From positions 1-47,257 of IMG/VR virus record IMGVR_UViG_3300008107_007977: a stretch of 47,257 bases of DNA. One strand, written 5' to 3'. Below the pieces are notes generated by a model. That model worked only from the letters and a program-made list of their open reading frames with translations, did not search any database and was not told the DNA's origin. The stretch is from a virus. This document shows positions 8,365 through 46,133 of this stretch, piece after piece (the stretch's first letter is position 1; each line of letters starts with the position of its first letter). The position numbers and the translations under genes were made by a program.

Positions 8365-8371
8365 TATTTAT
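8365..8371 (-). promoter_or_regulatory. ATAAATA late-promoter-like motif before the Dps-like gene
   Basis: The minus strand reads ATAAATA and includes the TAA stop of the 809-residue gene. It is 29 nt upstream of the Dps-like ATG at 8336, the same geometry as the motif before the NadR-like gene. It resembles the NATAAATA form of T4-like late promoters. Confidence 0.4.
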
Positions 8372-12248: not shown

Positions 12249-12275
12249 AGTTTTACCATCTGTTGGCAATAAGAT

Positions 12276-12282
12276 TATTTAT
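12276..12282 (-). promoter_or_regulatory. ATAAATA late-promoter-like motif before the NadR-like gene
   Basis: The minus strand reads ATAAATA, with the TAA stop of the upstream ligase-fold gene embedded in it. It lies 28 nt before the ATG at 12248, suitable spacing for a T4-type late promoter. The region is AT-rich, so chance is possible. Confidence 0.35.
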
Positions 12283-13445
12283 TTTTTTCTTCCTTTTAGC
12301 AAATTAGAACGAGCAAATTCTGCACGATTTACTAATTTTGTTGGATGTCCATTATGTACCATAACAAACCCTTCTGGCTCGGTTTTTTTACCGTCTATAT
12401 GGTGTTCAAATTCAGTCGAGGAAGATAGAGTTTGCACTAGTGCATTTTTCGCTTTTTGAATAGCATGATGAATCTTAAACGCTTGGGCTAAATGTTTACC
12501 ATTTCTGTCGACTTCGTTGTGAAATGCATTTAAAAGTTCGTGTTGTTTGAGTTTACCTTTTGGCGTTTTCTTCTTTTCGATCTCGCCTTCGTAACGATTG
12601 GAGACGAAAGAACGATAACCCTCAACCGTTGGAGTCGTATTTTCACGAACGGTGTGATTAATATAAAGGTCTAAATGATCTTTATGGGCTCGAGCCACGT
12701 GATACATCTCTGGATGAGAGGCTTGGTGGTGGCGAATTGCTGAATTTAGGTAGGTGCGAAACTCTTTTTGATTCTTTTCAGAGTGTTCGACTGGCTTTAC
12801 GCCTGGATGAATAAGGTGAACGCTTGGGTGAGACCCAAATTTATCGTGATCTACGTCAAACCCTGCAGTCATATTTGCAAGATCAGGACCGTGATACTTT
12901 GTGTGAACAACTAATCCGACGTGGGCTTTTGCGATCTTTTGACCGTGTTCTGAGTCTACAGGGGTAGAATAGGTGATTGTATTTGGAGTAAAATGATATT
13001 TACCGCCTTTTTTAGCCACATCACCCTTTGTATACATTAGGTCGCCTTGATAAACGCCATGTTTTGGGGCGACTTTAGGTAAATGTCGAAGCGCAGTTTT
13101 AAGTTTTTCGACTAATCCAGGTGCGTGACCGTGATTGCGATCGATGTCGGCTTCACTATAATTGATTTTTGGATTAACGTTGAAAGCCGACTTACTGGCA
13201 ACAAAGAACTTGCCCGTTTGTGGATGACGACCAAACACGATAGAAGGGGATCCATCGTACTTGGTCGTCACTTTTGTAGTATTGAACGCACCGTTAAGTT
13301 TGTCGTTTACTGCTGAGAGAGCATCTACCGTATGGTGAAAACCTGTTTCACCGCTATGTAGAAAGTTATCTTCTGCGTGTGTTAAGTGCTTTAAATGCTT
13401 AACTGGTTCTATTTCTTCTTGTAAATAGGTGCTAAACGATAACAT
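12279..13445 (-). CDS. Nucleotidyltransferase (DNA/RNA ligase-fold) protein of marine phages
   Basis: The 388-residue protein carries the ordered motifs of the covalent nucleotidyltransferase fold: motif I KYDG (62-65, Lys62 the candidate nucleophile), a motif III-like VYQGDLMY (131-138), motif IV EGFV (358-361) and a motif V-like KLV (370-372). This order matches ATP-dependent ligases and capping enzymes, although the spacing to motif IV is long. The body is unusually rich in His. It is directly upstream of the NadR-like kinase fusion, suggesting nucleotide or nucleic-acid repair. A CTAAATA late-promoter-like motif lies 37 nt before the ATG. Confidence 0.68.
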   Translation of the reverse strand: MLSFSTYLQEEIEPVKHLKHLTHAEDNFLHSGETGFHHTVDALSAVNDKLNGAFNTTKVTTKYDGSPSIVFGRHPQTGKFFVASKSAFNVNPKINYSEADIDRNHGHAPGLVEKLKTALRHLPKVAPKHGVYQGDLMYTKGDVAKKGGKYHFTPNTITYSTPVDSEHGQKIAKAHVGLVVHTKYHGPDLANMTAGFDVDHDKFGSHPSVHLIHPGVKPVEHSEKNQKEFRTYLNSAIRHHQASHPEMYHVARAHKDHLDLYINHTVRENTTPTVEGYRSFVSNRYEGEIEKKKTPKGKLKQHELLNAFHNEVDRNGKHLAQAFKIHHAIQKAKNALVQTLSSSTEFEHHIDGKKTEPEGFVMVHNGHPTKLVNRAEFARSNLLKGRKK

Positions 13446-13481
13446 TTAAAAACATACTCTCCGCTCTGTGGGATATGAGTA

Positions 13482-13488
13482 TATTTAG
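13482..13488 (-). promoter_or_regulatory. CTAAATA late-promoter-like motif before the ligase-fold gene
   Basis: The minus strand reads CTAAATA, resembling the T4 late promoter core TATAAATA used with the gp55 sigma factor. It lies in the only sizeable gap of this region, 37 nt upstream of the ATG at 13445. Identical motifs occur at other gene junctions in this window. Confidence 0.45.
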
Positions 13489-13495
13489 TTTCTTT

Positions 13496-14281
13496 TTAAT
13501 TACTCTTCATTTTTGCAAGAGCAGCAGTCAACGCCTCACGAACTGGACGCATAGCAGGATGCGCTGGGATCGTGCAGGTAGAACGAGAAGCCAAAGTGGC
13601 TTCTTTGAATTCTTCTGGCGTAAACCATTGAACGTTATCAATACCCATTAACTCCACGAGTTCGTGCATATTGACCGAACCTTCGTTTACAAGATTCACA
13701 GGACCTGATTCGCCGTCTTCAATAAGATCGCATGCAACACGAACGGCTTCGTCAAGGTCAGTAAGAGAGTTTTGACCTGCGTCGATAAGTTTAGCGTTCT
13801 TGGCGTAATTCATCACCTTGGTTAGGTAATTCTTTTTCTCATTAAGACCAGTAAATGGCATGCGAATACGGAAAACAAGAGCACGATCCTTCAAATAAAG
13901 ATCCGAAACGCCCTTGGTTACTGAATAGATGCTACCGAAGTAATTTGGATCATCATTTACATGAGAGATCTCACCTTGGTAAATGCAGCCGCTCGAGAAG
14001 TGAGCCAAACGTGGCTTGTGCCAATTTTCTTCGCAGGATTTGTAAAGTAATGCTGGAAAAATGGCATTAGCGTAGGTGGTTCCTTCGCGATCTAATTCAC
14101 AAGCATCGACATTTGGCGATCCTGTCATACCTGCACAGTTCACAACCCAATCATAAACGCCATCTGCTGCTTCTGCCAACGCATTCTTATGATCGGAAAT
14201 CGTCACAACATGATTGCGATTCATAAGTTCCGTTAAAACTTTTTTACCTGTCCATCCACGCCCAACAACTAAAATTTTCAT
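13496..14281 (-). CDS. RmlD-like dTDP-4-keto-sugar reductase (short-chain dehydrogenase superfamily)
   Basis: The start is ATG at 14281, which has GAGG 6 nt upstream; a TTG 12 nt earlier overlaps the previous stop. The 261-residue protein begins MKILVVGRGWTGKKVL, a Rossmann nucleotide-binding loop, and has SSGCIYQG and a YSVTK catalytic YxxxK. Length and layout resemble RmlD, the dTDP-4-dehydrorhamnose reductase, and related epimerase/reductases. Directly following RmlA and RmlB genes, it probably completes synthesis of a dTDP-6-deoxyhexose. Without an RmlC homologue in the window the product could be rhamnose or another 6-deoxysugar. Confidence 0.72.
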   Translation of the reverse strand: MKILVVGRGWTGKKVLTELMNRNHVVTISDHKNALAEAADGVYDWVVNCAGMTGSPNVDACELDREGTTYANAIFPALLYKSCEENWHKPRLAHFSSGCIYQGEISHVNDDPNYFGSIYSVTKGVSDLYLKDRALVFRIRMPFTGLNEKKNYLTKVMNYAKNAKLIDAGQNSLTDLDEAVRVACDLIEDGESGPVNLVNEGSVNMHELVELMGIDNVQWFTPEEFKEATLASRSTCTIPAHPAMRPVREALTAALAKMKSN

Positions 14282-14289
14282 AGCACACC

Positions 14290-15168
14290 TCAATTATGTT
14301 TTCCCAGTTTAATGATCTTCTGCAAATATTTACCATAGTCCGACTTAATATACTTGTTTGCCGCTTCTTGAAGTTGGTATTCTGTAATCCAAGCATTACG
14401 ATATGCAACCTCTTCAGGGCAAGCAATCATTGTTCCAGTTCGTCTTTGAATTGAACCAACAAAGGTTGATGCCTCTGCAAGTGATTCAAACGTACCAGTA
14501 TCAATCCAAGCAATACCACGATTCAAATATTCAACTTTACAATCGTGATCTTTCATATAAAGATTATTAATGTCTGTGATTTCAAGTTCACCGCGAGCAG
14601 ACGGTTTGATTTGCCACGCATAATCTACGACTTTATTGTCATAGAAATATAGACCAGTTACAGCATAGTTTGTTGGCGCAACGGCTGGTTTCTCGAGAAT
14701 TGCTTTTGGATCACCATGCTCATCAAGTTCAAGAACGCCGAAACGTTCTGGGTCTTGTACATGATATGCGAACAAAGTGCAACCTGTATTGTTCTTTGCG
14801 TAATTGAAACGGTTGATCAAATCATTACCGTAAAAAATATTGTCACCAAGAACAAGAGCAACATCATTCTTACCAATCCAATCTTGAGCGAGACGGAAGC
14901 ACTCGGCAATTCCGTTTGGCTTTTCTTGAATCATGTAATCAATTTTCAAACCCCACTGCGAACCATCTTTCAACAAACGTTTGAATTGTTCGCTATCATT
15001 TGGTGAGTTGATGATTAAAATATCGCGAATTCCCGCTAACATCAAAGTCACAAGAGGATAATAAACCAATGGCTTATCATAAACTGGTAGCAATTGTTTC
15101 GATGTCACTTCAGTACATGGATACAAACGAGTACCCATACCACCTGATAGAATAATCCCTTTACGCAT
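14290..15168 (-). CDS. rmlA: Glucose-1-phosphate thymidylyltransferase RmlA
   Basis: The 292-residue length matches RmlA/RfbA. The N-terminus MRKGIILSGGMGTRLYP carries the nucleotide-binding G-x-G-T-R-L signature, followed by SKQLLPVYDKPLVYYPL, the sugar-phosphate-site segment typical of RmlA. VLGDNIFYG near residue 110 is the metal-binding region. The enzyme makes dTDP-glucose from dTTP and glucose-1-phosphate. Its start overlaps the RmlB stop by 8 nt, and its stop is 9 nt from the RmlD-like start, so the three form one operon. Confidence 0.95.
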   Translation of the reverse strand: MRKGIILSGGMGTRLYPCTEVTSKQLLPVYDKPLVYYPLVTLMLAGIRDILIINSPNDSEQFKRLLKDGSQWGLKIDYMIQEKPNGIAECFRLAQDWIGKNDVALVLGDNIFYGNDLINRFNYAKNNTGCTLFAYHVQDPERFGVLELDEHGDPKAILEKPAVAPTNYAVTGLYFYDNKVVDYAWQIKPSARGELEITDINNLYMKDHDCKVEYLNRGIAWIDTGTFESLAEASTFVGSIQRRTGTMIACPEEVAYRNAWITEYQLQEAANKYIKSDYGKYLQKIIKLGKHN

Positions 15169-16111
15169 TATAATACTCCAAAGTTTTAATTAAGCCATCA
15201 TTAATATTCGTTTTTGCTTGCCAACCCAAGTCATGAGCAATTTTACTCGCATCCATTGAGTATCTAAAATCATGACCTTTACGATCAGGAACAAAATTAA
15301 TCCAGTTTTGATACATGTGAACTGGCTTACCCATCAGATCAAGGATGAGTGTAATCATATCAAGATTACTCATCTCAACGCCACCACCGATGTTATAACG
15401 CTCACCTGACTTAAAGTTTTGACCAATAGTCAGCAATGCATCGCAGTGATCTTCAACAAACAACCAGTCGCGAACATTTTGACCTGTGCCATAAACTGGA
15501 ATTGGTGTATTGTTCTTAATGTGACGAATCACAGTTGGAATGAATTTTTCTGAGTGTTGTCGCGGACCGTAGTTATTTGAGCAATTTGTCACAACTGCTT
15601 CAATGTTATGCGTGTTTACATAAGCGCGAACTAAATGATCGCTGGCTGCTTTGGTTGCAGAATACGGATTGCGTGGATTGTATGGTGTATTTTCTGTGAA
15701 CGCTGGATCATCATGACCCAAACTACCATATACTTCATCAGTAGAAACGTGAACTAATTTCCCTCCGTACTTTTTGATACACTTGAGGATATTGTGAGTT
15801 CCGTTAATATTTGTATCCAAGAAAACGTCGTCGCCGCGAATGGAATTATCCACATGAGATTCAGCAGCAAAATGGAAAGTAATATGCGGTTCGTAATCAT
15901 GATACAAACTCTCCAAATGTCCGAAGTTGCGAATGTCGCAACGTTTGAGTTTGAGTCGCCAATCGTTCCAATAACCGTCTAAATTGCTTTCGTTTGCCGC
16001 ATATGAACAATTGTCAATAACGATGATCTCATCTTCAGGATACTTTTTCAGATGAGAGATTACGAAATTAGAACCAATAAAACCCAAACCGCCAGTCACA
16101 AATGTAGTCAT
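15161..16111 (-). CDS. rmlB: dTDP-glucose 4,6-dehydratase RmlB
   Basis: The 316-residue protein shows the extended SDR fold: GGLGFIG NAD-binding loop at residues 7-13, FHFAAESHVDNSI, VSTDEVYGSLG with the Thr-Asp-Glu catalytic trio, and NPYSATKAASD (YxxxK). These are diagnostic of RmlB, which converts dTDP-glucose to dTDP-4-keto-6-deoxyglucose. It is slightly shorter than the approximately 350-360 residues of bacterial RmlB. It is the first of the three sugar genes in transcription order. Confidence 0.95.
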   Translation of the reverse strand: MTTFVTGGLGFIGSNFVISHLKKYPEDEIIVIDNCSYAANESNLDGYWNDWRLKLKRCDIRNFGHLESLYHDYEPHITFHFAAESHVDNSIRGDDVFLDTNINGTHNILKCIKKYGGKLVHVSTDEVYGSLGHDDPAFTENTPYNPRNPYSATKAASDHLVRAYVNTHNIEAVVTNCSNNYGPRQHSEKFIPTVIRHIKNNTPIPVYGTGQNVRDWLFVEDHCDALLTIGQNFKSGERYNIGGGVEMSNLDMITLILDLMGKPVHMYQNWINFVPDRKGHDFRYSMDASKIAHDLGWQAKTNINDGLIKTLEYYNA

Positions 16112-27284: not shown

Positions 27285-28024
27285 GGAAGAACTCCATTAT
27301 AACGTTTCAACATAACATCATTTCCATTCAAGAAAAATTCTCCTTGTACAGAAAGACCTGTGTTACCTACACGATATTTTACCGTATAGTCCAACACTCC
27401 GTCAAATTTTAATTTGTTATTTGGATGCATAAGCATTGCTGCAATCACACGATCAATTTCAGGTTGACCTGGTTCACGGAACTTGCGATACCAAACTGGT
27501 GACATACCAACAGCGACTTGTTTCTTTACAAAGTAACAATTTACATCTACGAAAAAATCTCTCGCATCAAGAACAGAAGCCCACTTTCCTAAACTTTCAC
27601 AATCATCAAAACAAATGAATTTACCTTCCTGATTGATAATTTTTCTTAGTGAAAACGCCCAATCTAAATCTTTTTCTTTTACCAAAGCAACTAATTTTTC
27701 AACATGATCTGGTTCAAGTGCATTATCTTCATCTAGGAAAATAAAATAATCACCATTTGCAATAAAGCTGAGAGCACCATAGATGCGATGACCGTTATAA
27801 CGATCAGTGCCTGTAGCAAAGGGTAGAACCATGAGTTGATCACTGCTACTTTCTCCTCTTGGAAAAGTTGCTTCATAAAGAACTGGATCGGCTTGTTTCC
27901 ATCTTTCCTTTCCGTCAATAACAACGATATGTTCTATATCTTTATATGTCTGAGCACGAACAGATTCGATACACTCTTTTAGATGAGGATTGCCGACGCT
28001 TGCTGTAATAATACTTACTTTCAT
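27272..28024 (-). CDS. Family 2 glycosyltransferase
   Basis: The 250-residue protein opens with MKVSIITASVGNPHLKECIESV and QTYKDIEHIVVIDG, the classic nucleotide-sugar fold of GT2, and carries the DxD-type FIFLDEDNALEP (Asp98-Glu99-Asp100). It should transfer a sugar from a nucleotide donor. It is embedded in the methyltransferase/glycosyltransferase run and has a 4-nt overlap with the upstream oxygenase. Confidence 0.85.
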   Translation of the reverse strand: MKVSIITASVGNPHLKECIESVRAQTYKDIEHIVVIDGKERWKQADPVLYEATFPRGESSSDQLMVLPFATGTDRYNGHRIYGALSFIANGDYFIFLDEDNALEPDHVEKLVALVKEKDLDWAFSLRKIINQEGKFICFDDCESLGKWASVLDARDFFVDVNCYFVKKQVAVGMSPVWYRKFREPGQPEIDRVIAAMLMHPNNKLKFDGVLDYTVKYRVGNTGLSVQGEFFLNGNDVMLKRYNGVLPWKK

Positions 28025-28773
28025 AATTGGCTTCTCTTTTTACAGAATTCCATAATACTCGGATCATCATATTGATCTTTGTGTGGAGTGAAGAACGCTT
28101 TCTTTCGCGTCTCAGTTTCTAATGTGATTGGCGTTAAGTAATAAGTCGCTAAACTCATTCTAGCAATTTCTTGAGGACAAGTCAACTCATCTGGCAATCC
28201 GTGCCAAGAGTTATGAGTTGTATCGAAAATGACTGCGCGATTAAATTTGTTTTCGTAACGCGCATAACATTCTTTTGGAAGATTCTTTTCGTAATCGTGC
28301 GACCAGAACTCTATTCCGCCGCCCCACTCTGCAACCCAATCAGGAGTTATGTAAACAATTACATTAAAGTTTCTGCGCAAAGGTAGTTTTGGATGTACAG
28401 AATAGTCTTTATGGATATTCAATTTGCCACCACGGCAATGCGAGTGCATTCCGCCGCCATGCAAACCATAGTCAGCATGAATCTCTGACATACCTGTAAT
28501 GACTTTGAGTTTACTCACAAACTCTTCACTGCAAAGATAGTAAAGTGCAGAATAAATGCTTGATGGGAATTTATCCCAGTGCGAACATGCTTTCTTTACT
28601 TCAACAGGATTATTGTACGCTACTGTCCAAACATCAGAATCGTGTTTAGGAAATTCAGCGGCGATTTTATTTGCTAGTTCTTCTTCAAAAAAGTTATCAA
28701 TTACAACATGATTGAAGGGTTCTGCTTTCTTGAACTTCTCGTTGAGTGAAACGAGATCTAACTCGTTAATCAT
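28021..28773 (-). CDS. 2OG-Fe(II) dioxygenase
   Basis: The 250-residue protein has the iron facial triad and cosubstrate Arg: LNIHKDYS (His121-x-Asp123), NSWHGLPD (His191) and ARMSLATYYL (Arg205). It contains GGGIEFWSHD, typical of phage and sugar-associated dioxygenases. It uses 2-oxoglutarate and O2 to hydroxylate a substrate, here probably a sugar, lipid or protein in the adjacent glycosyltransferase cluster. A CTAAATA late-type motif lies 30 nt before the ATG. Confidence 0.8.
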   Translation of the reverse strand: MINELDLVSLNEKFKKAEPFNHVVIDNFFEEELANKIAAEFPKHDSDVWTVAYNNPVEVKKACSHWDKFPSSIYSALYYLCSEEFVSKLKVITGMSEIHADYGLHGGGMHSHCRGGKLNIHKDYSVHPKLPLRRNFNVIVYITPDWVAEWGGGIEFWSHDYEKNLPKECYARYENKFNRAVIFDTTHNSWHGLPDELTCPQEIARMSLATYYLTPITLETETRKKAFFTPHKDQYDDPSIMEFCKKRSQL

Positions 28774-31768: not shown

Positions 31769-31808
31769 TAGAAAAAAATCTAATAAAATCAACAACTTAC
31801 GTCAACGC
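31756..31808 (-). repeat. Duplicated promoter-upstream block, copy 2
   Basis: Second copy of the promoter-upstream block, including the TGA stop of the upstream oxygenase gene in the shared GTTGACG. It matches copy 1 through the -35 element and diverges afterwards, so the duplication is limited to the control region. Confidence 0.75.
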
Positions 31809-32392
31809 CAGGGAGGTCCCTCGAACCAGCCAACTAGACTGTAGCGTTTGCCTTTCGTGACGGGAGTCACGCCGTGATGTAGGAATGATGGAAAAGCCAT
31901 CAATGTCCCTTGCTTTCGTATTTCATCTTTTGGTGGCTTTTCAGGGACATCATCACCAAACTCAAAGTTGCCACCTTCATATGTATTTGGATCTGACAAT
32001 TGTACAATTGCAGAGATTTTTCTCTGGTGACCTGGATTCATTGTTATATTACTTTGTTCAAGCCAATGTAAATCCATATGTAATTTATATTCGCCTTGAT
32101 ATTGCTCACAATATTGTGTGAATTGTAGAGGTGGCAATTTTGTAATGTGCGCTTCAAAAAAGTCATTGTTCATTTGCGTCACAATGTTCCAGAAAACTTG
32201 ATGAATAAAATACATCTTTTCATCGTTTGGTTCAATCCAAACAATTTTACTTCTTCTGTGATTGAATGTCGCATCTAAATTTGGCGCGGCGCCAGTTCTC
32301 GCCCAAGTTGGCGTTTTTGTTTTTGCCGCCTCTATAATCCATTCACATTGCTCAGGTGTGAATGCTTGTGCATATGACCATAACGCTTTCAT
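31802..32392 (-). CDS. PKHD-type 2OG-Fe(II) hydroxylase, first copy
   Basis: The 196-residue protein contains the iron site YKLHMDLHW (His105-x-Asp107), LHHGV (distal His173) and the cosubstrate Arg183 in KGKRYSLVGWFEGP. The PPLQFTQYCEQYQGEYKLH segment is typical of the PKHD/prolyl 4-hydroxylase group found in marine T4-like phages. It likely hydroxylates a protein or small molecule. Its upstream neighbour is a paralogue and overlaps by 4 nt. Confidence 0.85.
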   Translation of the reverse strand: MKALWSYAQAFTPEQCEWIIEAAKTKTPTWARTGAAPNLDATFNHRRSKIVWIEPNDEKMYFIHQVFWNIVTQMNNDFFEAHITKLPPLQFTQYCEQYQGEYKLHMDLHWLEQSNITMNPGHQRKISAIVQLSDPNTYEGGNFEFGDDVPEKPPKDEIRKQGTLMAFPSFLHHGVTPVTKGKRYSLVGWFEGPPWR

Positions 32393-32958
32393 TGGAATTT
32401 TGGTCCCTCAAACCAGCCGACTAAACTATAACGTGTGCCGCGCACAACAGGTTGCAAATTGTGATATACAAATGATGGAAATGCAATCACAGTACCTTGA
32501 CTCTCTATTTCTTTTGAAGTTGGTGCTGGATAAACATTTTCGAGAATCAATTCACCGCCATCATAATCGCTTCTTGGCGAGAGTTGTGTAACCAAAGTCA
32601 CCTTTCTATGTCTTGACGTCTCATTAATCCAAAACACATCTTGATGACTTTTATATTCATCTTGATTTGTTTCATGATATTCTGTAAATTGAATTGGTGG
32701 AAGGTGAGTGACATTGAACCCAAAAAAGTCACGGTTCATACGAACTAGCAGTTTCCAATATTCTTCATAAACAAAAGAAAACTTTGGATTTTCTTCATGA
32801 ATCCAACGCACAGTTGATCGACGAAGTCGTTTCGTATCTTCACCAGTTAATCCACCAACAGTGGGTTGTTCTGGTGGAAGTTCTAAAGCCAAATCAATTA
32901 TCTTTTCGCAAGTCTCTTTTGAGAAGTAGTTTAACCAATATGCCCATTCACCTTTCAT
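32389..32958 (-). CDS. PKHD-type 2OG-Fe(II) hydroxylase, second copy
   Basis: The 189-residue paralogue of the downstream gene keeps all catalytic residues: YKSHQDVFW (His105-x-Asp107), YHNLQ (His166) and RGTRYSLVGWFEGP (Arg176). The two are aligned along their length, sharing NRDFF/NNDFF and LPPIQFTEY/LPPLQFTQY. Tandem duplication followed by substrate divergence is inferred. It overlaps dCMP deaminase by 4 nt. Confidence 0.85.
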   Translation of the reverse strand: MKGEWAYWLNYFSKETCEKIIDLALELPPEQPTVGGLTGEDTKRLRRSTVRWIHEENPKFSFVYEEYWKLLVRMNRDFFGFNVTHLPPIQFTEYHETNQDEYKSHQDVFWINETSRHRKVTLVTQLSPRSDYDGGELILENVYPAPTSKEIESQGTVIAFPSFVYHNLQPVVRGTRYSLVGWFEGPKFQ

Positions 32959-38074: not shown

Positions 38075-38757
38075 TAGCCTTCTCCGAAGTTTGAACTAGC
38101 CGCTTCAATCGCAATCCAATAGGTTAATTTCTTTGATTCGTTATAGAATCGAGAAACGCCCATAGAAGCAATCTCAACAACATACTCATCTGGTACGATC
38201 TTAAGATTTTCAATCTTAAGAGTTGCTTGGAACTGAATGTCAGTTTCATCATTCAAAACGATCTTGGCGTCATCGACAATTTCACCCTTGACATCCATTG
38301 CAGAGATGGCAATCTTACCATCTTCATTTGTTACAACAACGTTAGGGCACTTCAAAATCGAAGCAACGCTGAAAATCCAATTCAAAGTCTCAGCAGGAAG
38401 CGTGAACTTAACTTCATATGCTGGAATGTTAATCTCTTTATTTGGTGGAGTTAGAATAAGATTAGTGGCGGTGAAACGTTGACGAATTGTACCCTTGCCA
38501 CCAAGACTTTTGAATACGAGAAAGTCTTGAAGAATTTCAACTTCATTGTCGTTCTTGTTCATAGACAACAAGCCAAGCGACTTATTCAAATCATAAATTC
38601 CAAACTCATGAGGGAATGTTTCCTCAACAACTGCTTCAGCAAGAATAGCCTTGCTGGAAGAAATCGTGCGGAGTTTATTGCCAGGCTTTACAACGATTCC
38701 GCCATTAATCGCGGCAAAGTTTTTCAAAATAGTAACGGTGTTTTCAGAAAGTTTCAT
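38074..38757 (-). CDS. 45: Sliding clamp (gp45)
   Basis: The 227-residue protein (T4 gp45, 228) reads MKLSENTVTILKNFAAINGGIVVKPGN, FGIYDLNKSLGLLSM, EVKFTLPAETLNWIFSVA and SMGVSRFYNESKKLTYWIAIE, all gp45 segments. It is the trimeric processivity clamp and in T4 also coactivates late transcription. Its promoter (38789-38817) lies in the end of the dNMP kinase gene, with GAGG before the ATG. Confidence 0.95.
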   Translation of the reverse strand: MKLSENTVTILKNFAAINGGIVVKPGNKLRTISSSKAILAEAVVEETFPHEFGIYDLNKSLGLLSMNKNDNEVEILQDFLVFKSLGGKGTIRQRFTATNLILTPPNKEINIPAYEVKFTLPAETLNWIFSVASILKCPNVVVTNEDGKIAISAMDVKGEIVDDAKIVLNDETDIQFQATLKIENLKIVPDEYVVEIASMGVSRFYNESKKLTYWIAIEAASSNFGEG

Positions 38758-39415
38758 AATTTAGAACCTCATTTGCTTCAACATGATTATTATATAACGA
38801 ATCTACCAATTTATCAACCCTAACTGTCAATTCTTCCAAACTACAGTTGTTATCCATGATTATATCGTAGTCAGAACCAATCCAAGCCCATTCTGAATAA
38901 TGAACTTCAGGATATGCATTACGCATTACATCAAGATTGTGGCGACCTAGATTACAGTCTCGAGCAAGATTGTACCACTCAGGATCATCACCACGGCGAA
39001 CGCGAATAACCTTACCGCCGCTATCTCGAATTGCTTTAATTTCATTCGGAAACCTCACATCAGCAATAACATAATTATTCCAAGGAGCCTGTTCACAACG
39101 ACGCATCACAGTATGAACCCAGAGGTCAGGGTGAAAAACATCCCGCCCTGCCTCTGTGCCCATTAGCTGGAGTGCTAATCTTGGTGAAAATGGTCGACCG
39201 AGTTTCTCAGACCACCATTTGTCGTCTTGCTCGCGCCATGCTCGAGATTCTGGAGTATTACCTTCGAGCATTTGACGATCCCAACCAAAGATAATTGAGC
39301 ATGCGTCTTTGAGACTGTTTGCGTAACTCTCCTTGAAAAAGTCATGTCGTTCGACCAAGAGATCTGCGACTGTACCTTTACCTGCTCCAATGAAGCCAAC
39401 AAGACCAACGATCAT
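38744..39415 (-). CDS. 1: Deoxynucleoside monophosphate kinase (T4 gp1-like)
   Basis: The 223-residue protein begins MIVGLVGFIGAGKGTVADLLV, a Walker A loop (GFIGAGKGT), and has the dNMP kinase-like segments SYANSLKDACSIIFGW, PRLALQLMGTEAGRDVFHPDLWV, NYVIADVRFPNEIKAI and GGKVIRVRRG. T4 gp1 phosphorylates dNMPs including modified dNMPs. It overlaps gp45 by 14 nt. Its location beside the base-modification island would fit a kinase accepting unusual nucleotides. Confidence 0.8.
   Translation of the reverse strand: MIVGLVGFIGAGKGTVADLLVERHDFFKESYANSLKDACSIIFGWDRQMLEGNTPESRAWREQDDKWWSEKLGRPFSPRLALQLMGTEAGRDVFHPDLWVHTVMRRCEQAPWNNYVIADVRFPNEIKAIRDSGGKVIRVRRGDDPEWYNLARDCNLGRHNLDVMRNAYPEVHYSEWAWIGSDYDIIMDNNCSLEELTVRVDKLVDSLYNNHVEANEVLNYETF
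38789..38817 (-). promoter_or_regulatory. Sigma-70-like promoter of the sliding clamp gene
   Basis: The minus strand reads TTGATA (38812-38817), exactly 17 bp, then TATAAT (38789-38794). Transcription would start about 25 nt before the gp45 ATG (38757), and GAGG follows. The promoter lies inside the last codons of the dNMP kinase gene. Confidence 0.7.
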
Positions 39416-39430
39416 AACAAAATCTCTGGA

Positions 39431-40228
39431 TTAAAGAGAACCGACGTAATTTGCAACAGCACCCATATCACCAGTGAATGGGTATGTGCCAACGTGATGC
39501 GTTTTCATCCATGGGCAGAGGAAAATTTGACCACCGATTTTACGCCACCACTGGCAGAACATATAATCTTCAGACAAGTAACGATCACTCTTGCCATGAT
39601 CAATGACAGTGTCAAAGTATGCATGGATGTAACGCGAACCATCAAAGTTGGCTTGACCAACATGATCTGGCTTATAGTTAAATTCAGGATAGGCTTCCTT
39701 GAATTTACCAAAGACTTCTTTCTTAACCATCATGAAACCAGTTCCGATTTCTAGAACTTCAAGCGGCTCACCGACGTTAAATTGACCAGTGCCTGCGACA
39801 GCATTAAAGACATAATCACCAGTCACTTTTTCAAGTTCATTTGGAGTAATGTCTGGCTTGCGCTTAACTGCTTCAATTACTGCCGACCACTTAATTGATT
39901 TCTTTGGGTACGGTCCGCCAATAACTTCTTTATCCAAAGCAAGCATCGCGATTACATCCTTTGGATCGAAATGAATATCAGAGTCGATAAAAAGAAGATG
40001 CGTAAATCCCGAACGAAGAAATTCATCTACAAGATAGTTTCTTGCACGAGTAATCAGCGATTCGTTAAAGATATATGAAAATCGAGTTTCAATGCCGTAA
40101 TTGGCACAGACTGCTTGAAGGTCTAGGCTCGACTTAATGTACATTCCATGTGCCATACCACCATACATTGGTGTGGCTACAAAGAGTTTATTTTTGCGTA
40201 GTTTTTCTACAGAAATTTCAAGTTGCAT
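39431..40228 (-). CDS. GT-A glycosyltransferase-like protein
   Basis: The 265-residue protein reads LFVATPMYGGMAHGMYIKSSLDLQ, then FTHLLFIDSDIHFDPKDVIAM with Asp82-x-Asp84 as DxD, followed by IGGPYPKK and GTGFMMVKKEVFGKF. Similar proteins are common in marine T4-like phages. It should bind a nucleotide sugar and a divalent metal. It is last in transcription order of the predicted modification operon; a base, fibre or lipid glycan are possible targets. Confidence 0.72.
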   Translation of the reverse strand: MQLEISVEKLRKNKLFVATPMYGGMAHGMYIKSSLDLQAVCANYGIETRFSYIFNESLITRARNYLVDEFLRSGFTHLLFIDSDIHFDPKDVIAMLALDKEVIGGPYPKKSIKWSAVIEAVKRKPDITPNELEKVTGDYVFNAVAGTGQFNVGEPLEVLEIGTGFMMVKKEVFGKFKEAYPEFNYKPDHVGQANFDGSRYIHAYFDTVIDHGKSDRYLSEDYMFCQWWRKIGGQIFLCPWMKTHHVGTYPFTGDMGAVANYVGSL

Positions 40229-40230
40229 TA

Positions 40231-40782
40231 TTATTCACTCCAGTTAAAAAATGATCTAACATAATTAAGAATCTTTTGTTGATCTTCGAGATTCTCATTA
40301 ACCATCACATCTATATAGTCCATCAACATAAGCGAACTACGGATATTCGCAATTTTAGTCTTACGAGAGTTCTTAAACTTTTCATCTTGATCATCTTTAC
40401 GATCAATGTGACGTTGATCAAGAGTCGAATCTTTTACCGTCAAAATCAAAATTTTAAAATCATTTGGAAATAGTTCGGATAGATTATCTAGCATCTTACC
40501 GTTAAACAAACGATCGCCTTCAAAGATTACATTAGCATTTGATTCGCGCGCAAGTGTGTTGAAAAACTTATCCGCATCTGGTTGCACTGCCATAGACAAA
40601 CGATCTGTACCCTGGAATACATTACCGTCATTAACATACTTGCCGAGAATATAAAGATTCAACTTCTTGGAATACATAGCATCAAGAAGTTTCTCTGGCT
40701 TGACCACTTGCCAATCATCGGCGAGTGAAATCAATAGTAAACTTTTCTTTATTGATTTTATTTCGTGCCGCAAGTCTTTCAT
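40231..40782 (-). CDS. Conserved phage protein, kinase-like lid region
   Basis: The start is uncertain; I chose ATG at 40782 (MKDLRHEIKS), although a TTG at 40734 (ISLADDWQVVKPEKLL) fits homologues of this type better and no good ribosome-binding site is seen. The 183-residue protein reads LNLYILGKYVND, GTDRLSMAVQPDADKF, NVIFEGDRLF and RHIDRKDDQDEKFKNSRKTKIANI. The last segment resembles the Arg-rich lid of P-loop kinases, but no Walker A is visible. It overlaps the amino acid:DNA transferase-like gene and probably acts with it. Confidence 0.6.
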   Translation of the reverse strand: MKDLRHEIKSIKKSLLLISLADDWQVVKPEKLLDAMYSKKLNLYILGKYVNDGNVFQGTDRLSMAVQPDADKFFNTLARESNANVIFEGDRLFNGKMLDNLSELFPNDFKILILTVKDSTLDQRHIDRKDDQDEKFKNSRKTKIANIRSSLMLMDYIDVMVNENLEDQQKILNYVRSFFNWSE

Positions 40783-41659
40783 CGAGCGTTTCGTTTCTGG
40801 CTTGCCACAAAACATTCCACTGAATACCAGTCCAACCATCTTGTTCTGCTTGCTGAATTTCTTCACTCTGACGATCAAGGTAGTAGCCAAGATACCGTCC
40901 ATGATGTTCACGAAAAATCTTCTTGAACGAACACAAACAAGTTTCCATCGTGAAGAAATCGATTTGATTACTCAGTTCAGGGAATCTAGATCTGGTTTCC
41001 TCAAGAATGTCCTTCGCTTTGCTTTCAAGGTCATTGCATTCTGATGTAGATAGTTTTCCATCGTACTTGTCATCTTCGCCGAGGGCAAGATGCAAACCAT
41101 TACGATGTGAACGAGACCCTGCATAATCGTCAAGCATGAGGCTGTCAGGTACACAGTTAATGCCAGCAGTATGAGTGAGATGCTGAAGATAAAACCAAGT
41201 GGAATAACGACCAAATTTGTGAAGAGAAGTTTTGAGATTATTCCAAAGGTTGATAAAATTTTGTTTTTCGTTGTCTCCATAATAACTCTCCAAAACTTCT
41301 CTTTGTGTGCGATTGCCAATAAACTCTTGATAAGATTCGAACATGGCTGGCAAATGACCCTTGTTCCACTTTGTATCTGTTTGGTATCTCAGTCTCTTGT
41401 AGTTGTGACTATTCCACCAGCGAATACGATCCACAGTGGCGAGTTCGTAGTCAGGAAACTCATTCTTGAGCACCCATGCAGTTGGTAGTTGATAGGTATT
41501 ACCATACAACCAACATAACCATATTTTTTCTTCGCTATTATGTTCGTATCTTTTGTTTAGATAATTTGTCATCCAAACAGCAGGATCGCAATCCCCATAC
41601 TTCATCGACCACGCATACCAGCGAATGAATTGCTCACGACGCTGATTTTGAATTGTCAT
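40715..41659 (-). CDS. Amino acid:DNA transferase-like protein
   Basis: The 314-residue protein begins MTIQNQRREQFIRWYAWSMKYGDCDPAVWMTNYL, continues EKIWLCWLYGNTYQLPTAWV, YKRLRYQTDTKWNKGHLPAMFESY, FGRYSTWFYLQHL and SLMLDDYAGSRSHRNGL. I recognise it from marine T4-like phage proteins annotated as putative amino acid:DNA transferases (ADDT-type all-alpha domain), proposed to add amino acids to hydroxymethylated or phosphorylated bases. That activity is a prediction. It overlaps the LMW phosphatase gene by 26 nt. Confidence 0.65.
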   Translation of the reverse strand: MTIQNQRREQFIRWYAWSMKYGDCDPAVWMTNYLNKRYEHNSEEKIWLCWLYGNTYQLPTAWVLKNEFPDYELATVDRIRWWNSHNYKRLRYQTDTKWNKGHLPAMFESYQEFIGNRTQREVLESYYGDNEKQNFINLWNNLKTSLHKFGRYSTWFYLQHLTHTAGINCVPDSLMLDDYAGSRSHRNGLHLALGEDDKYDGKLSTSECNDLESKAKDILEETRSRFPELSNQIDFFTMETCLCSFKKIFREHHGRYLGYYLDRQSEEIQQAEQDGWTGIQWNVLWQARNETLDERLAARNKINKEKFTIDFTRR

Positions 41660-42080
41660 TTATATAAACTTTTAATGCTTCTTCCAACATACGAATTACT
41701 TGTTTATGTAATTCGTTTCCTTGAGCAAAATTAGGATCAGGAATTTTTGGAACACTAATTAACTTACTAATTCGAATGGCTTTATTAAATACATCTTCAC
41801 CGAACTTCTCTCGCAACTTTTCTTCGTTACTGTTGTCCATGTAAAAGATAACGTCAGCCCAATCAACATGATCTTGAGAAATCGGTGTTGAGCGAATCCC
41901 TTTACCATCATAACCAAGTTCTTCTAATGCTGTGCGCATTTTCTTGGCTGTGATCTCATTACCTTTTGTATTCTTAAGAGCAGCGGAACGAACGTTCCAG
42001 TCAGGCTTTATCTTCTTTAAGATAATCTCACCCGCTGCTGAACGGTTAATGTTGCCATGACAAACAAACAGTACATTCAT
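41634..42080 (-). CDS. Low-molecular-weight protein tyrosine phosphatase-like protein
   Basis: The 148-residue protein begins MNVLFVCHGNINRSAAGEIIL; Cys7-(x5)-Arg13 is the phosphatase P-loop of the LMW-PTP family, and IPDPNF supplies the general acid Asp115. The length matches the family (about 150). LMW-PTPs dephosphorylate tyrosine in exopolysaccharide regulation or arsenate-type substrates. Within this island it may dephosphorylate an intermediate of a base or sugar modification. It overlaps the amidoligase by 4 nt. Confidence 0.8.
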   Translation of the reverse strand: MNVLFVCHGNINRSAAGEIILKKIKPDWNVRSAALKNTKGNEITAKKMRTALEELGYDGKGIRSTPISQDHVDWADVIFYMDNSNEEKLREKFGEDVFNKAIRISKLISVPKIPDPNFAQGNELHKQVIRMLEEALKVYINDNSKSAS

Positions 42081-43042
42081 AGACCAGACTCTCTCAGTTC
42101 AACCATATAAGGGTATATATCAGTAGATTTAATCTCACCGATAGCGTCAATGTTAACCTTTTTACGCAACTCTGTCAAACGTTTTTCAACTGTTTTGCGA
42201 CTGTGTGCGTCAAAGTTAGTCCACTGATATATCTGTTCAGTTTCATATTCATATGGTTGAAACTTTGGAAATTTGAAAGACGTTTCCCAGAAAATTTCTG
42301 TGGGCGTCTTTTCTGTGTTGAGTGCCGCATCTATAAAATCTCTACACCAACGAATACAAGATTCCATCTCAACCATATCAAGAGTGCCTGGGAAATGGCG
42401 GAACTCAATTGTGTTTGTTTCTTCCCACATCTGACGCAGATTGATACCTGCACGCGGAGAGAAATACCACATGCGTCCTTTATCAGTCAACGGAGCATGC
42501 TCTTCATAAAACTCTTGAGTTGTCGTTGTGTTCAACATTGCAGCAACTCTTGATTCAGGAAGTTTGTATTGATGAGATTTTTTACGGCGCTTCATTCGCT
42601 TCAATTCCCATTCATATACTTCTGGAGCAAGCATACTTTTGTTTGGAACGGGAATAGTTTCTACAATATCAAAAGCGAGTTGTTGAAATTCAGTAATATA
42701 TCTTAAGAGTTTCTTACAATTTTCCAAATCATCTTTCAATCCTGGAACACGAACATGAATATGCAGATTGCTTCTGTAATTAACTACAGGCGCAGGATTC
42801 AATGCCGCATTAATCTCTTTGATGTGTTCAATTTGTTCAGCAATTGTGTTTGTCGGCTTGGTATTAATTTCGCCGCCATACTGATACAATAGACCCAAAG
42901 GATCGTTAGCAATACCTGTGGTGCTTACGCAGGTGTTATCTTTATCGTTCCACTGTGCCCCTTCTGGGAGTTTGCCGAAACGATATGAGTCACCGTATTC
43001 TAATTCAACACCATAGGTAAAATCTTTTGGATTATAAAGCAT
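42077..43042 (-). CDS. Amidoligase (COOH-NH2 ligase family)
   Basis: The 321-residue protein carries the amidoligase fold motifs: YGVELEYG (about 10-17), GGEINTKPT (56-64), NLHIHVRVPG (92-101) and NTIEFRHFPGT (210-220, Glu213, Arg215). This family uses ATP to join carboxylate and amine groups. Its pairing with a class II glutamine amidotransferase is a known theme, with the amidotransferase supplying ammonia. The substrate here is not known: a modified base, peptide or cell-wall piece are all possible. Overlaps of 4 and 11 nt tie it to both neighbours. Confidence 0.78.
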   Translation of the reverse strand: MLYNPKDFTYGVELEYGDSYRFGKLPEGAQWNDKDNTCVSTTGIANDPLGLLYQYGGEINTKPTNTIAEQIEHIKEINAALNPAPVVNYRSNLHIHVRVPGLKDDLENCKKLLRYITEFQQLAFDIVETIPVPNKSMLAPEVYEWELKRMKRRKKSHQYKLPESRVAAMLNTTTTQEFYEEHAPLTDKGRMWYFSPRAGINLRQMWEETNTIEFRHFPGTLDMVEMESCIRWCRDFIDAALNTEKTPTEIFWETSFKFPKFQPYEYETEQIYQWTNFDAHSRKTVEKRLTELRKKVNIDAIGEIKSTDIYPYMVELRESGL

Positions 43043-44114
43043 ATTTTGCCTTCACGTCATTTATTAGACGAAGTTGTTTAACGAGAAATTGAGTTCTATT
43101 ATACTTGATAAATGCGTATTTCGCTATTCTTTTTCGATCTTCTATGGTGTATTTCTTAAAGCGATCTACAGCCGCAATGAACTGCTCTTTAACAGGAACA
43201 TCTAGATTACGGTCTAGTAGAGCCATTGAAAAAGGGTGCATATGTTCTTGCTCGGCTACAAAGTCGCTACCCAGAACAACATAAGGTATGCCGAACGTAG
43301 CACCTTCCATTGAAACGATACCTGTAGATTCATTACCACTACCCAAAATGTAAGTAGCCTCTCGCATATACTTCAAGATAGTTTCGCGCGGAGCATCAAA
43401 ATGAAACTTAATGTTTTTGAACTTTTTAAGATTGTCGATTATCTTTTGATCTTCATCTTCAATCAAACAATGTTTCAGTGTAGTGAAAACATGTAGTGTA
43501 ATATCAGGAGCATTGCGACCATGCATGCGCATCATGACTTGTGGTTTCTTTCCACTATCCCAACGTCCAACGAATACTGCATATGGCTTTGCTTCAGCAA
43601 CTTCTTCTTCTTTTTCAACTAGGTGAACCGAAGTTGTGCCGTCAAAGAAGCGATTAAATCTTTCGTGTTGCCATTTAGACACACCGCACCAATAGACTTT
43701 ATGTCTATCAAACCGTGATTTAATTTCAGAAGTCAATGGCATTGATGGGCGATGGTAGTGATCGAATACAACAGCATTTTTATAATGCTTATAGATTCCA
43801 GTAAGATGTTTACAGGAATTATCTAGTATGATATCAGGATTAATTTTCTGAATTAACTTTACGATTTCGTTTGAAATCTTTTTTGTAAGAATTCTTTTTT
43901 CTTTCACAGGAAGGTTGACGTCATGAATCAAATCTAAGATGATCTGATTGGGAAATTGAAGATCGGATCCTTTCATCGTAACGTAATAAACATCATAATA
44001 CTCTGACAAGACTTCGCGTTGAGCCTTGCCGAATTTCTGCACCCCATTTAAAATCTTATCTTTTTTAGATGGAGCAAAGACGTTATCAATAAGAAGGATT
44101 TTTTCTTTACGCAT
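43032..44114 (-). CDS. Family 4 glycosyltransferase (GT-B)
   Basis: The 360-residue protein reads AVFVGRWDSGKKPQVMMRMH, a GT4-type C-terminal donor site, and NESTGIVSMEGATFGIPYVVLGS, containing the E-x7-E pair (ESTGIVSME). Near residue 135 FDHYHRPSMPLTSEI and WCGVSKWQHERFN define the N-terminal domain. It is a retaining glycosyltransferase. Lying between the glutamine amidotransferase and the amidoligase (overlaps of 8 and 11 nt), it is probably part of the same pathway. Confidence 0.8.
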   Translation of the reverse strand: MRKEKILLIDNVFAPSKKDKILNGVQKFGKAQREVLSEYYDVYYVTMKGSDLQFPNQIILDLIHDVNLPVKEKRILTKKISNEIVKLIQKINPDIILDNSCKHLTGIYKHYKNAVVFDHYHRPSMPLTSEIKSRFDRHKVYWCGVSKWQHERFNRFFDGTTSVHLVEKEEEVAEAKPYAVFVGRWDSGKKPQVMMRMHGRNAPDITLHVFTTLKHCLIEDEDQKIIDNLKKFKNIKFHFDAPRETILKYMREATYILGSGNESTGIVSMEGATFGIPYVVLGSDFVAEQEHMHPFSMALLDRNLDVPVKEQFIAAVDRFKKYTIEDRKRIAKYAFIKYNRTQFLVKQLRLINDVKAKYAL

Positions 44115-44805
44115 TCTGTAAGTCAGGATTTTTTGAACGCACTCTTTTCATGTTAACTGTAAGATCACTGCTCACGGTCATATATGTGCTCATAGGCATT
44201 GGAGTGGGTTTCAGTTTTGAACGAAAACCAATATCTTCCGTCGAGGTGATTATATACCCATTCGGCATATGAGTAAAGTAAATTGGTCGCTTTCCGTTAC
44301 GATAAAATCTTAACGTTTTTGTATAGTGTAATTCTGCAACAGCCATTGAAGAATCTGGAAACTCCTCAAGAGGGGATTTATTTGCAGTAATACATTGCAA
44401 AACCAATTCACTATCATTCTTCGTTTTAGTTTCGTAACCATACAAATCATTCCAACGTTCTGGCATCTCTTGAGTCAAAACGCCATTATGAGCGATTGAA
44501 TACTGATCGTTAAATATTGGTTGATTGTATTCAAGATCAGAAGTTGAATAACGACAATGACCAATCATATAAAGGTTGCCGTCTTCATTGACGAACTCTT
44601 TAACTGACTTTTCCAAATGAATTTTTATAAATTTTTCGGCAGGAACAGGCTCAATGAATGTCGTTATTCCTTTGTTCCAATGAAGAAGGAACGATGCACC
44701 TGTTGCGTGTAGTCCTCGAATACTGGATTCGAGAAAAACCTTTTTTACATTTTCCCAATCTGCTTCAGTTGGTTGTTTTAATATTGCACCAATGATTGCA
44801 CACAT
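44107..44805 (-). CDS. Class II glutamine amidotransferase (Ntn-hydrolase)
   Basis: The 232-residue protein begins MCAIIGAIL, so removal of Met exposes Cys2, the nucleophile of class II glutamine amidotransferases. RGLHATGASFLL, GHCRYSTSDLEYNQPI and YSIAHNGVLT are the typical glutamine-site segments. There is no synthetase domain, so ammonia or an amide must pass to another enzyme, most simply the amidoligase two genes downstream. The ATG shares one base with the dioxygenase stop, so translation is coupled. Confidence 0.87.
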   Translation of the reverse strand: MCAIIGAILKQPTEADWENVKKVFLESSIRGLHATGASFLLHWNKGITTFIEPVPAEKFIKIHLEKSVKEFVNEDGNLYMIGHCRYSTSDLEYNQPIFNDQYSIAHNGVLTQEMPERWNDLYGYETKTKNDSELVLQCITANKSPLEEFPDSSMAVAELHYTKTLRFYRNGKRPIYFTHMPNGYIITSTEDIGFRSKLKPTPMPMSTYMTVSSDLTVNMKRVRSKNPDLQNA

Positions 44806-46133
44806 TATGCGAATAATCCTTCAAGATTTGAGATTTCTTCTTTCGGGTGGTATTTATCACGCATCTCTTTACCGCCGTTCGCTTCAAGGTAGTCATACCA
44901 TTCTTGCTCTGTCCACATACCCTCAGAAATTCCATTCCACAATGGTTTCCAAAGTTTATGTTCACGACTCGTGCGCCGCGATTCAACATACTTAAAGCGG
45001 AGATTCTCATATTCATATGAGCCAAGTTCAAGCATCTTTTCGCGGAAATAACAAACAAGACTAATACGCTCGGCATCTTCATCTTCCAATTCAATCGGAG
45101 TATTGCCATGCATACAGTCATGATTGTTAATCAGCAGTAAGTCGCCTGGACGAACATCAATGGCAACTCGATATTCTGGAAGAATAAGATAGCCGCCTTT
45201 GTAGCGACCACCGTTTGAAACAACAAGAAGATTACTCAAACCAGTATTCAAATCGCCAGCATCATAATGTGCTGCTGTTCTAAAGTTACTATTCACAGTG
45301 ACCGTAGTGAATACTGTTCCTGGAACCAAGAATCGTGAATCAATTTTATCGGCTGCTGCTTTCTGATTACTCCAACGCCATGGAAGAAGTTCGCGGAAGC
45401 CACGATCAAGTGATTGAAGGAACGGGAACGCAAGTTGAAACTTATCATAATGATCGCGAGTGAAAGAAGTGGCGCGACCATATGGAATACGAGGATAACG
45501 ATCAAACCAACCTGCTACGCCAGATAGAACTGCATTCGCATAGGTTGTATCAGAAATAAAAGTTTCAAGAACCCACTTTGCTTCTTTACGAATTTCAGTG
45601 TTGTTCTTTTTCAAAACTGCTTCAAGCCAATTAACATAGTTGAACTTGTGGTTTTCAACTTCAGAAGAAAGCCACACAAGACCACGTGTATCTTCTTTGG
45701 CTTCAGCAAGATTACGAATTACATTAAGAGAAGATTCATGATCATCCATCATGTTTGTGTCAGATAAATTACACAAGTATGAGAGAATGTCTAGTTGTTC
45801 AACTGTAACCCAGTCGCGACCACCAAGTTTGGCGCCCTTTGGTCCTGCTGCCATACCACGATTTTGCGTGGCTGTTGCAGCACCACGCAATCCAATATAG
45901 GCTTGTTCTTGTTCTTCTTTTGTAAACCAATTCTTGCGGAAGATGAAACCGATTCTCTTTTCATCTTTTGTTACATCTTCTTCTTGATTTGAACGCGTCA
46001 GTACATCAAACTCTGCTGGAAGATAACAATCAGTGTCCTCTTGAACGAGGGTATCATAATGGGACTCATCCAAAAATTTACCCATTAAGTCTGTGCAATC
46101 AACTTTTTCTTTTGCAACAATTACTTTAGCCAT
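44805..46133 (-). CDS. TET/JBP-type 2OG-Fe(II) dioxygenase (predicted thymine or 5-methylcytosine oxygenase)
   Basis: The 442-residue protein contains the Fe(II) and 2OG site of the TET/JBP superfamily: FTTVTVNSNFRTAAHYDAGD (His289-x-Asp291), GGYLILPEYRVAIDVRPGDLLL, CMHGNTPI (His342) and AERISLVCYFRE (Arg356). The preceding ATSFTRDHYDKFQLAFPFLQ is typical of the phage branch of this family. Members hydroxylate thymine (JBP) or 5-methylcytosine (TET) in DNA. It is first in its operon behind a good promoter and a strong SD region, consistent with supplying the hydroxylated base to later enzymes. Confidence 0.82.
   Translation of the reverse strand: MAKVIVAKEKVDCTDLMGKFLDESHYDTLVQEDTDCYLPAEFDVLTRSNQEEDVTKDEKRIGFIFRKNWFTKEEQEQAYIGLRGAATATQNRGMAAGPKGAKLGGRDWVTVEQLDILSYLCNLSDTNMMDDHESSLNVIRNLAEAKEDTRGLVWLSSEVENHKFNYVNWLEAVLKKNNTEIRKEAKWVLETFISDTTYANAVLSGVAGWFDRYPRIPYGRATSFTRDHYDKFQLAFPFLQSLDRGFRELLPWRWSNQKAAADKIDSRFLVPGTVFTTVTVNSNFRTAAHYDAGDLNTGLSNLLVVSNGGRYKGGYLILPEYRVAIDVRPGDLLLINNHDCMHGNTPIELEDEDAERISLVCYFREKMLELGSYEYENLRFKYVESRRTSREHKLWKPLWNGISEGMWTEQEWYDYLEANGGKEMRDKYHPKEEISNLEGLFA

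Follow-up and report, generated by a model that had tools for sequence, protein, structure and literature searches.

Phages such as M6, ViI, SP10 and phiW-14 hypermodify thymidine with a 5-hmdU DNA kinase and an amino acid:DNA transferase (ADDT), two families through which a 5-hydroxymethyl group becomes an amino-acid adduct. Flavin-dependent lyases and acetyltransferases reportedly act in pathways of this type. A five-gene system of Rhodococcus phage Tonitrus includes ParB, a TET/JBP-like enzyme, aGPT-Pplase2 and a 5-hmU DNA kinase (PMC11955845). A phage ligase, CmoY, is known to form an amide on a DNA base, 5-carboxymethylcytosine, at the expense of ATP, and a cluster related to CmoY has a glutaminase domain (PMC12783734). 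Pairs of a glutamine amidotransferase (GATase) and an amidoligase have been proposed to act on peptidoglycan in LUZ24-like phages (PMC11945000; UFV-P2, PMC3890496). Here we describe a GATase, a glycosyltransferase (GT) and an amidoligase that are part of a T4-like phage operon, and propose, with a probability of roughly 0.8, that they form the middle of a DNA-base hypermodification operon whose best explanation is a six-step pathway.

The DNA analysed (the window, meaning the whole stretch of 47,257 nucleotides) comes from IMG/VR as a 47-kb record. Its replication genes are T4-like (clamp, clamp loader, RegA-type repressor, UvsX and DnaB-like helicase), and its DNA polymerase shares 51% identity with the enzymes of T4-like phages of Synechococcus; over the cassette, the DNA is not close to that of any named phage. 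A first-pass annotation had placed the GATase, GT and amidoligase at 43042-44107, a span that corresponds to the GT alone. The GATase is a stand-alone class II (Ntn) protein of 232 amino acids with a Met-Cys start and Cys2 as nucleophile (44107-44805), the GT belongs to the GT-B type (group 1; 43032-44114, 360 amino acids), and the amidoligase is an Amidoligase_2 COOH-NH2 ligase of the glutamine synthetase (GS)/gamma-GCS/YbdK fold (42077-43042, 321 amino acids). All three ORFs, head to tail on the minus strand with overlaps of 8 and 11 nt, were confirmed, and their scores (PF13522, 33.9 bits; PF00534, 27.7 bits; PF12224, 32 bits) lie above the curated Pfam cut-offs of 27, 26.4 and 22 bits, respectively. 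Against relatives, dN/dS was 0.04-0.13 wherever dS was unsaturated; the genes are under purifying selection and hence are not chance ORFs. Among the matches listed, the GATase and amidoligase are co-located in 94 distinct contigs.

The genes flanking this triplet were absent from the first-pass annotation. The first cassette gene, at 44805-46133, encodes a 442-amino-acid TET/JBP-type 2-oxoglutarate/Fe(II) DNA oxygenase that matches PF12851 Tet_JBP (E 4.8e-25) and phrog_24024 (E 1.7e-160) and carries the HxD...H iron ligands and the arginine for 2-oxoglutarate, with H289, D291, H342 and R356 invariant among 31 homologs. On the other side of the triplet are an LMW-PTP-like phosphatase (41634-42080; PF01451, E 1.4e-17) in which C7..R13-S14 and D115-P116 are conserved, an ADDT with a truncated C-terminus (40715-41659; PF18724, E 1e-20) and a P-loop kinase remnant (40231-40735). 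The order on the minus strand is TET, GATase, GT, amidoligase, LMW-PTP, ADDT and kinase remnant, and the junctions from TET through ADDT overlap by 1, 8, 11, 4 and 26 nt, short overlaps that are typical of one transcription unit. Next on the minus strand are a GT-like protein, a possible accessory with homologs in Cr30 and DLP6 (39431-40228; phrog_1574, E 2.9e-61; Anp1 PF03452 below cut-off), and a flanking replication gene, a deoxynucleoside monophosphate kinase (38744-39415; PF21448, E 2.8e-10). Elsewhere in the window, minus-strand NDP-sugar genes (RmlD-like, nucleotidyltransferase and 4,6-dehydratase; PF04321, PF00483 and PF16363 matches; 13496-16111) are a possible source of the GT's sugar donor, a link that we infer; with cytidylyltransferase-like genes (phrog_3041/395) they form a run over 8368-16111, a possible sugar-donor supply. 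At 31802-32958 and 28021-28773 the window also encodes a tandem pair of 2OG-Fe(II) oxygenases (PF13640) and, at some distance, another one.

The window's own copy of the cassette is damaged. Relative to two contigs that are 99.6-99.9% identical to it (L002 and L003), 145 bp are absent between positions 40735 and 40736, which removes the ADDT C-terminus (314 vs 339 amino acids) and the kinase N-terminus including the P-loop; no microhomology was seen at the gap. Because the gap, a true deletion or an assembly gap, damages both genes, this copy may be inactive or misassembled; intact ADDT and kinase copies are present in relatives. The start of the listed 226-amino-acid kinase ORF (position 40911) is out-of-frame ADDT sequence, and this ORF (40231-40911) had no Pfam or PHROG match. 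The intact kinase ortholog in contig L012 matches PF18751 (E 4.2e-10) and not the 5-hmdU kinase model PF18748; the P-loop, intact in relatives, is lacking in the window kinase, and a kinase profile searched against the PDB matched only P-loop regions of unrelated NTPases.

Both proteins of the proposed amide chemistry have active sites that are complete at the sequence level and confident AlphaFold2 models (pLDDT 90.8 for the GATase and 93.6 for the amidoligase), and that part of the first-pass annotation is plausible; the dedicated GATase-amidoligase pairing that came with it is not supported. The GATase has the N-terminal Cys, Arg, Asn-Gly and Asp of class II enzymes in an Ntn fold (Cys2, R85, N107-G108 and D131, invariant among relatives), and its PDB fold matches are PurF, GlmS/GFAT and EgtC. 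Its 232 amino acids comprise a glutaminase domain only, with no SIS (sugar isomerase) domain of the kind that marks GFAT/GlmS, and it has at least 585 relatives in IMG/VR. In the amidoligase, E13, E15, E58, H94, H96, R197, N201, E213 and R215 do not vary across 92 sequences, and the profile match, the GS/gamma-GCS-like fold and these conserved acidic, His and Arg residues are those of PF12224. The nearest folds to its model are YbdK, gamma-glutamylcysteine synthetase and glutamine synthetase, with VIA Z scores of 10.9 to 1tt4, 10.4 to YbdK 1r8g and ~9.5 to GS and gamma-GCS; the best fold match (Z up to 10.9) has an rmsd of 4.4 over 222 residues, and Foldseek found no PDB match with E below 0.001. 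PDB sequence searches with the amidoligase and with the ADDT returned no meaningful relatives, and amidoligase relatives were absent from the 84,980 cellular genomes scanned.

With TET/JBP, LMW-PTP, ADDT and kinase genes as neighbours, the cassette reads as one for DNA-base hypermodification, and we consider it very probable that it modifies the bases of the phage's own DNA and not sugars or the host cell wall. The acceptor, which the first-pass annotation had left vague, is best read as a DNA base given the TET/JBP, ADDT and kinase genes alongside. Gene identities, intact active-site residues, two protein folds, the conserved gene order and the swaps were observed; all the reactions, the identity of the base and the sequence of steps are inferred. 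TET/JBP would hydroxylate the 5-methyl group of thymine (less likely of 5-methylcytosine) in phage DNA, the P-loop kinase would phosphorylate the resulting 5-hydroxymethyl group, and ADDT would displace the phosphate with a nitrogen nucleophile. The GATase would give glutamine-derived ammonia, most likely to the ADDT step, yielding a 5-aminomethyl base; the GS-fold amidoligase would then use ATP to join a carboxylic acid to the amine, a GNAT acetyltransferase acting instead in sister phages. Finally, the LMW-PTP would remove a phosphate and the GT, where present, would add a sugar, and the product would shield phage DNA from host nucleases.

We surveyed 128 distinct IMG/VR contigs among the matches listed from an amidoligase search and from GATase/amidoligase profile searches, 98 of which show both GATase and ADDT; since the contigs are related and were gathered by such searches, the counts are not independent. 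In the slot beside the GATase, 74 of the 98 listed contigs have an amidoligase and 24 a GNAT acetyltransferase, with none having both or neither. Three architectures cover all 98 among the matches listed: amidoligase with LMW-PTP (49), a divergent amidoligase with a second GNAT (25) and GNAT alone (24). Our own amidoligase profile recovered 8 of 8 expected positives and nothing in two GNAT contigs. A single clade of GNAT loci was rejected on both the GATase tree (p-AU 1.7e-49) and the ADDT tree (6e-68), so the exchange of amidoligase and GNAT, or recombination to the same effect, has happened repeatedly. The two are not strictly alternatives, since the 25 listed contigs of the second architecture combine an amidoligase ~30% identical to the window's with a GNAT that differs from the slot GNAT. 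Fifteen of these 25, among the matches listed, also have a ParB-like gene, lying between GNAT and ADDT at L066 7871-9187 and similar loci; its ParB_N match is below cut-off in L080, and it recalls the ParB of the CmoX and Tonitrus clusters. In two large contigs (L163 and L168; 247 and 167 kb), in-frame stop codons fall within the GATase and/or amidoligase matches.

The GT, which the first-pass annotation had treated as a central member, is an optional one. Among the matches listed, the gap between GATase and amidoligase in the 94 contigs is empty in 69 and holds a GT-B in 19, a TET-associated glycosyltransferase (TAGT) in five and a 2OG oxygenase in one, so that the gene which prompted the annotation is the least constant part. 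A GT is present in 26 of the 98 listed contigs, all of the amidoligase-LMW-PTP type (26/49). This confinement of GTs (GT-B or TAGT) to LMW-PTP-bearing cassettes among the matches listed, in related contigs with few independent pairs, weakly suggests that LMW-PTP exposes a hydroxyl to which the GT then attaches a sugar. The LMW-PTP itself adjoins the amidoligase in 49 of 49 listed contigs of the window type and in five of five loci of another type, with a 5-hmdU DNA kinase. L012, one of the contigs with TAGT in the GT slot, carries an AmoC/PmoC gene (PF04896, E 1.8e-119; 10004-10771) just downstream of the cassette, which suggests that its phage infects a nitrifier or a methanotroph.

The five loci of this other type are those of the sewage phage Simon (genome PQ683277) and of L166, L167, L169 and L170. 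In Simon, whose amidoligase is 44% identical to the window's, ADDT and an FAD oxidoreductase precede the amidoligase, an LMW-PTP and a 5-hmdU DNA kinase with a helical domain come next, and Nmad5, a thymidylate-synthase-like gene and an HD phosphohydrolase lie further on. L166 and L167 repeat the arrangement and L169 and L170 have parts of it; all five combine amidoligase and LMW-PTP with ADDT and the 5-hmdU kinase, and all five lack the GATase. A DAO-type FAD oxidoreductase is found in Simon, L166, L167 and L169 but neither in the window nor in any of the 13 TET-cassette records tested, while the thymidylate-synthase-like gene is found in Simon, L166, L167 and L170 (it is not shown in the short L169) and is missing from the long TET contigs. 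Given these complementary distributions, GATase and FAD oxidoreductase look like alternative nitrogen-handling steps, and TET and the thymidylate-synthase-like enzyme look like alternative hydroxymethyl sources. The FAD oxidoreductase and GNAT genes would fit the roles reported for flavin-dependent lyases and acetyltransferases.

We think thymine the probable base, in preference to 5-methylcytosine (5mC). A search for C5-methyltransferases (PF00145) had no match in 29 different records, including DLP6, Cr30 and C48C1, the complete genomes with the closest named TETs; a cytosine route via a phage C5-methyltransferase was rejected on this result. Most of the related contigs are fragments, and for these it means little that a methyltransferase or thymidylate synthase is missing. 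Together with the ADDT and 5-hmdU kinases, the missing methyltransferase favours conversion of thymine to 5-hydroxymethyluracil (5hmU). That TET instead makes 5hmC from 5mC laid down by a methyltransferase of the host, or by one that went undetected, seems rather unlikely: characterised phage TETs are said to act on 5mC and the TET-associated TAGT family occupies the GT slot of relatives, but besides the absence of PF00145 in those 29 records, there are also clusters in which a thymidylate-synthase-like gene and a 5-hmdU kinase accompany the amidoligase and ADDT. Cr30 has a thymidylate-synthase match, which may be ordinary. The Cr30 region L042 9001-17894, which has TET, ADDT, a weak TAGT-like gene, an annotated inositol-1-phosphate synthase and a kinase homolog, hints at an inositol-bearing base.

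What the GATase and amidoligase do within the thymine pathway is the more finely balanced question. The first-pass annotation had cast them as dedicated partners, which their distribution does not support: the GATase is kept in 24 of the 98 listed contigs in which GNAT replaces the amidoligase, and the amidoligase is kept without a GATase in Simon and four contigs, so an obligate pair was rejected. Since the GATase stays when the amidoligase gives way to GNAT, it may work with ADDT to give the amine that either of the other two acylates; whether it serves ADDT and not the amidoligase we put at even odds. The fullest version, in which TET makes 5hmU, GATase-derived ammonia and ADDT give 5-aminomethyluracil, amidoligase or GNAT caps the amine and the GATase is a non-homologous stand-in for the FAD oxidoreductase, is offered as tentative. 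Comparable doubt attaches to a different chemistry for the same DNA cassette, in which ADDT, as in known systems, links an amino acid through its alpha-amine, and a GATase-fed amidoligase turns the exposed carboxylate into an amide or extends it. The ADDT-type enzymes that are known take their names from amino acids, a class II GATase normally passes its ammonia to a synthase, and CmoY ligates glycine to a DNA-borne carboxylate, its glutaminase-fused relatives being proposed to use ammonia; the GATase that persists beside GNAT argues against this chemistry, as do the five GATase-less amidoligase loci, which are themselves also compatible with an amidated amino-acid carboxylate or with a different donor.

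Two further explanations are less probable. The GATase-like protein might be an amidohydrolase of the EgtC kind, taking off a glutamyl group that the gamma-GCS-fold amidoligase has added, as EgtC is among the PDB matches of its model and the amidoligase resembles gamma-GCS/YbdK; yet PurF and GlmS match slightly better and the GATase remains where the amidoligase is missing, and we regard this as improbable. Most improbable is the annotation's original proposal of an amidated or peptide-linked sugar, or of host cell-wall alteration. The window carries NDP-sugar genes, and a GATase/amidoligase/ATP-grasp/GGCT module has been proposed to modify peptidoglycan in LUZ24-like phages, to which the cell-wall idea properly belongs; the gene neighbourhood here gives it no support, for ATP-grasp, GGCT and a second COOH-NH2 ligase were not found among the cassette genes, the TET, ADDT and kinase neighbours are of a DNA-modifying kind and most relatives have no GT, a context on which cell-wall or sugar amidation was rejected.

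If the DNA-base reading is true, glutamine-dependent amide chemistry and a GS-fold ligase join the enzymes that decorate DNA, environmental T4-like phages probably hold new bases, and the swaps (amidoligase/GNAT, GATase/FAD oxidoreductase, GT/none) allow the order of steps to be tested one gene at a time. Parts of the scheme may already have been predicted in earlier work on TET and thymidine pathways of phages (Iyer 2013, Lee 2022, Burke 2021). The amidoligase family also reaches other contexts: in Vibrio phage 2.275.O (L043 7866-12126), a relative with 31% identity is surrounded by genes for deazaguanine modification of DNA and accompanied by an Ntn hydrolase that weakly resembles GATase_6, which may represent a second type of DNA modification based on amides.

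Among known systems, the LUZ24-like module of PaP3 also sets a GATase (27% identical) and a PF12224 amidoligase side by side, but there the pair is accompanied by a COOH-NH2 ligase, ATP-grasp and GGCT. Like CmoA-CmoX-CmoY, the window cassette would use ATP to form an amide on a base of phage DNA, whereas CmoY is asparagine-synthetase-like and the ligase here has a GS fold, and the handle comes from carboxy-SAM there and from TET here. As in phage TET plus TAGT (PF20691) systems, TET is found next to a GT, and TAGT fills the GT slot of L012 and L019, although the window GT is a GT-B of PF00534 and no C5-methyltransferase was found. Tonitrus, as described, is without GATase, amidoligase, LMW-PTP and GT but likewise has TET/JBP, an ADDT-type enzyme and a kinase side by side, and its ParB finds a counterpart in 15 relatives among the matches listed. 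Compared with the thymidine hypermodification systems, the hydroxymethyl group is here probably made in DNA by TET and there by a dUMP hydroxymethylase, the kinase is nearer PF18751 than PF18748/PF18723, and a GATase and a GS-fold amidoligase are added; what the two share is an ADDT, a P-loop kinase (a remnant in the window) and tailoring enzymes in one cluster, and Simon has the same amidoligase and LMW-PTP in a cluster of that kind. We file the cassette as a variant of the thymidine-type DNA hypermodification systems.
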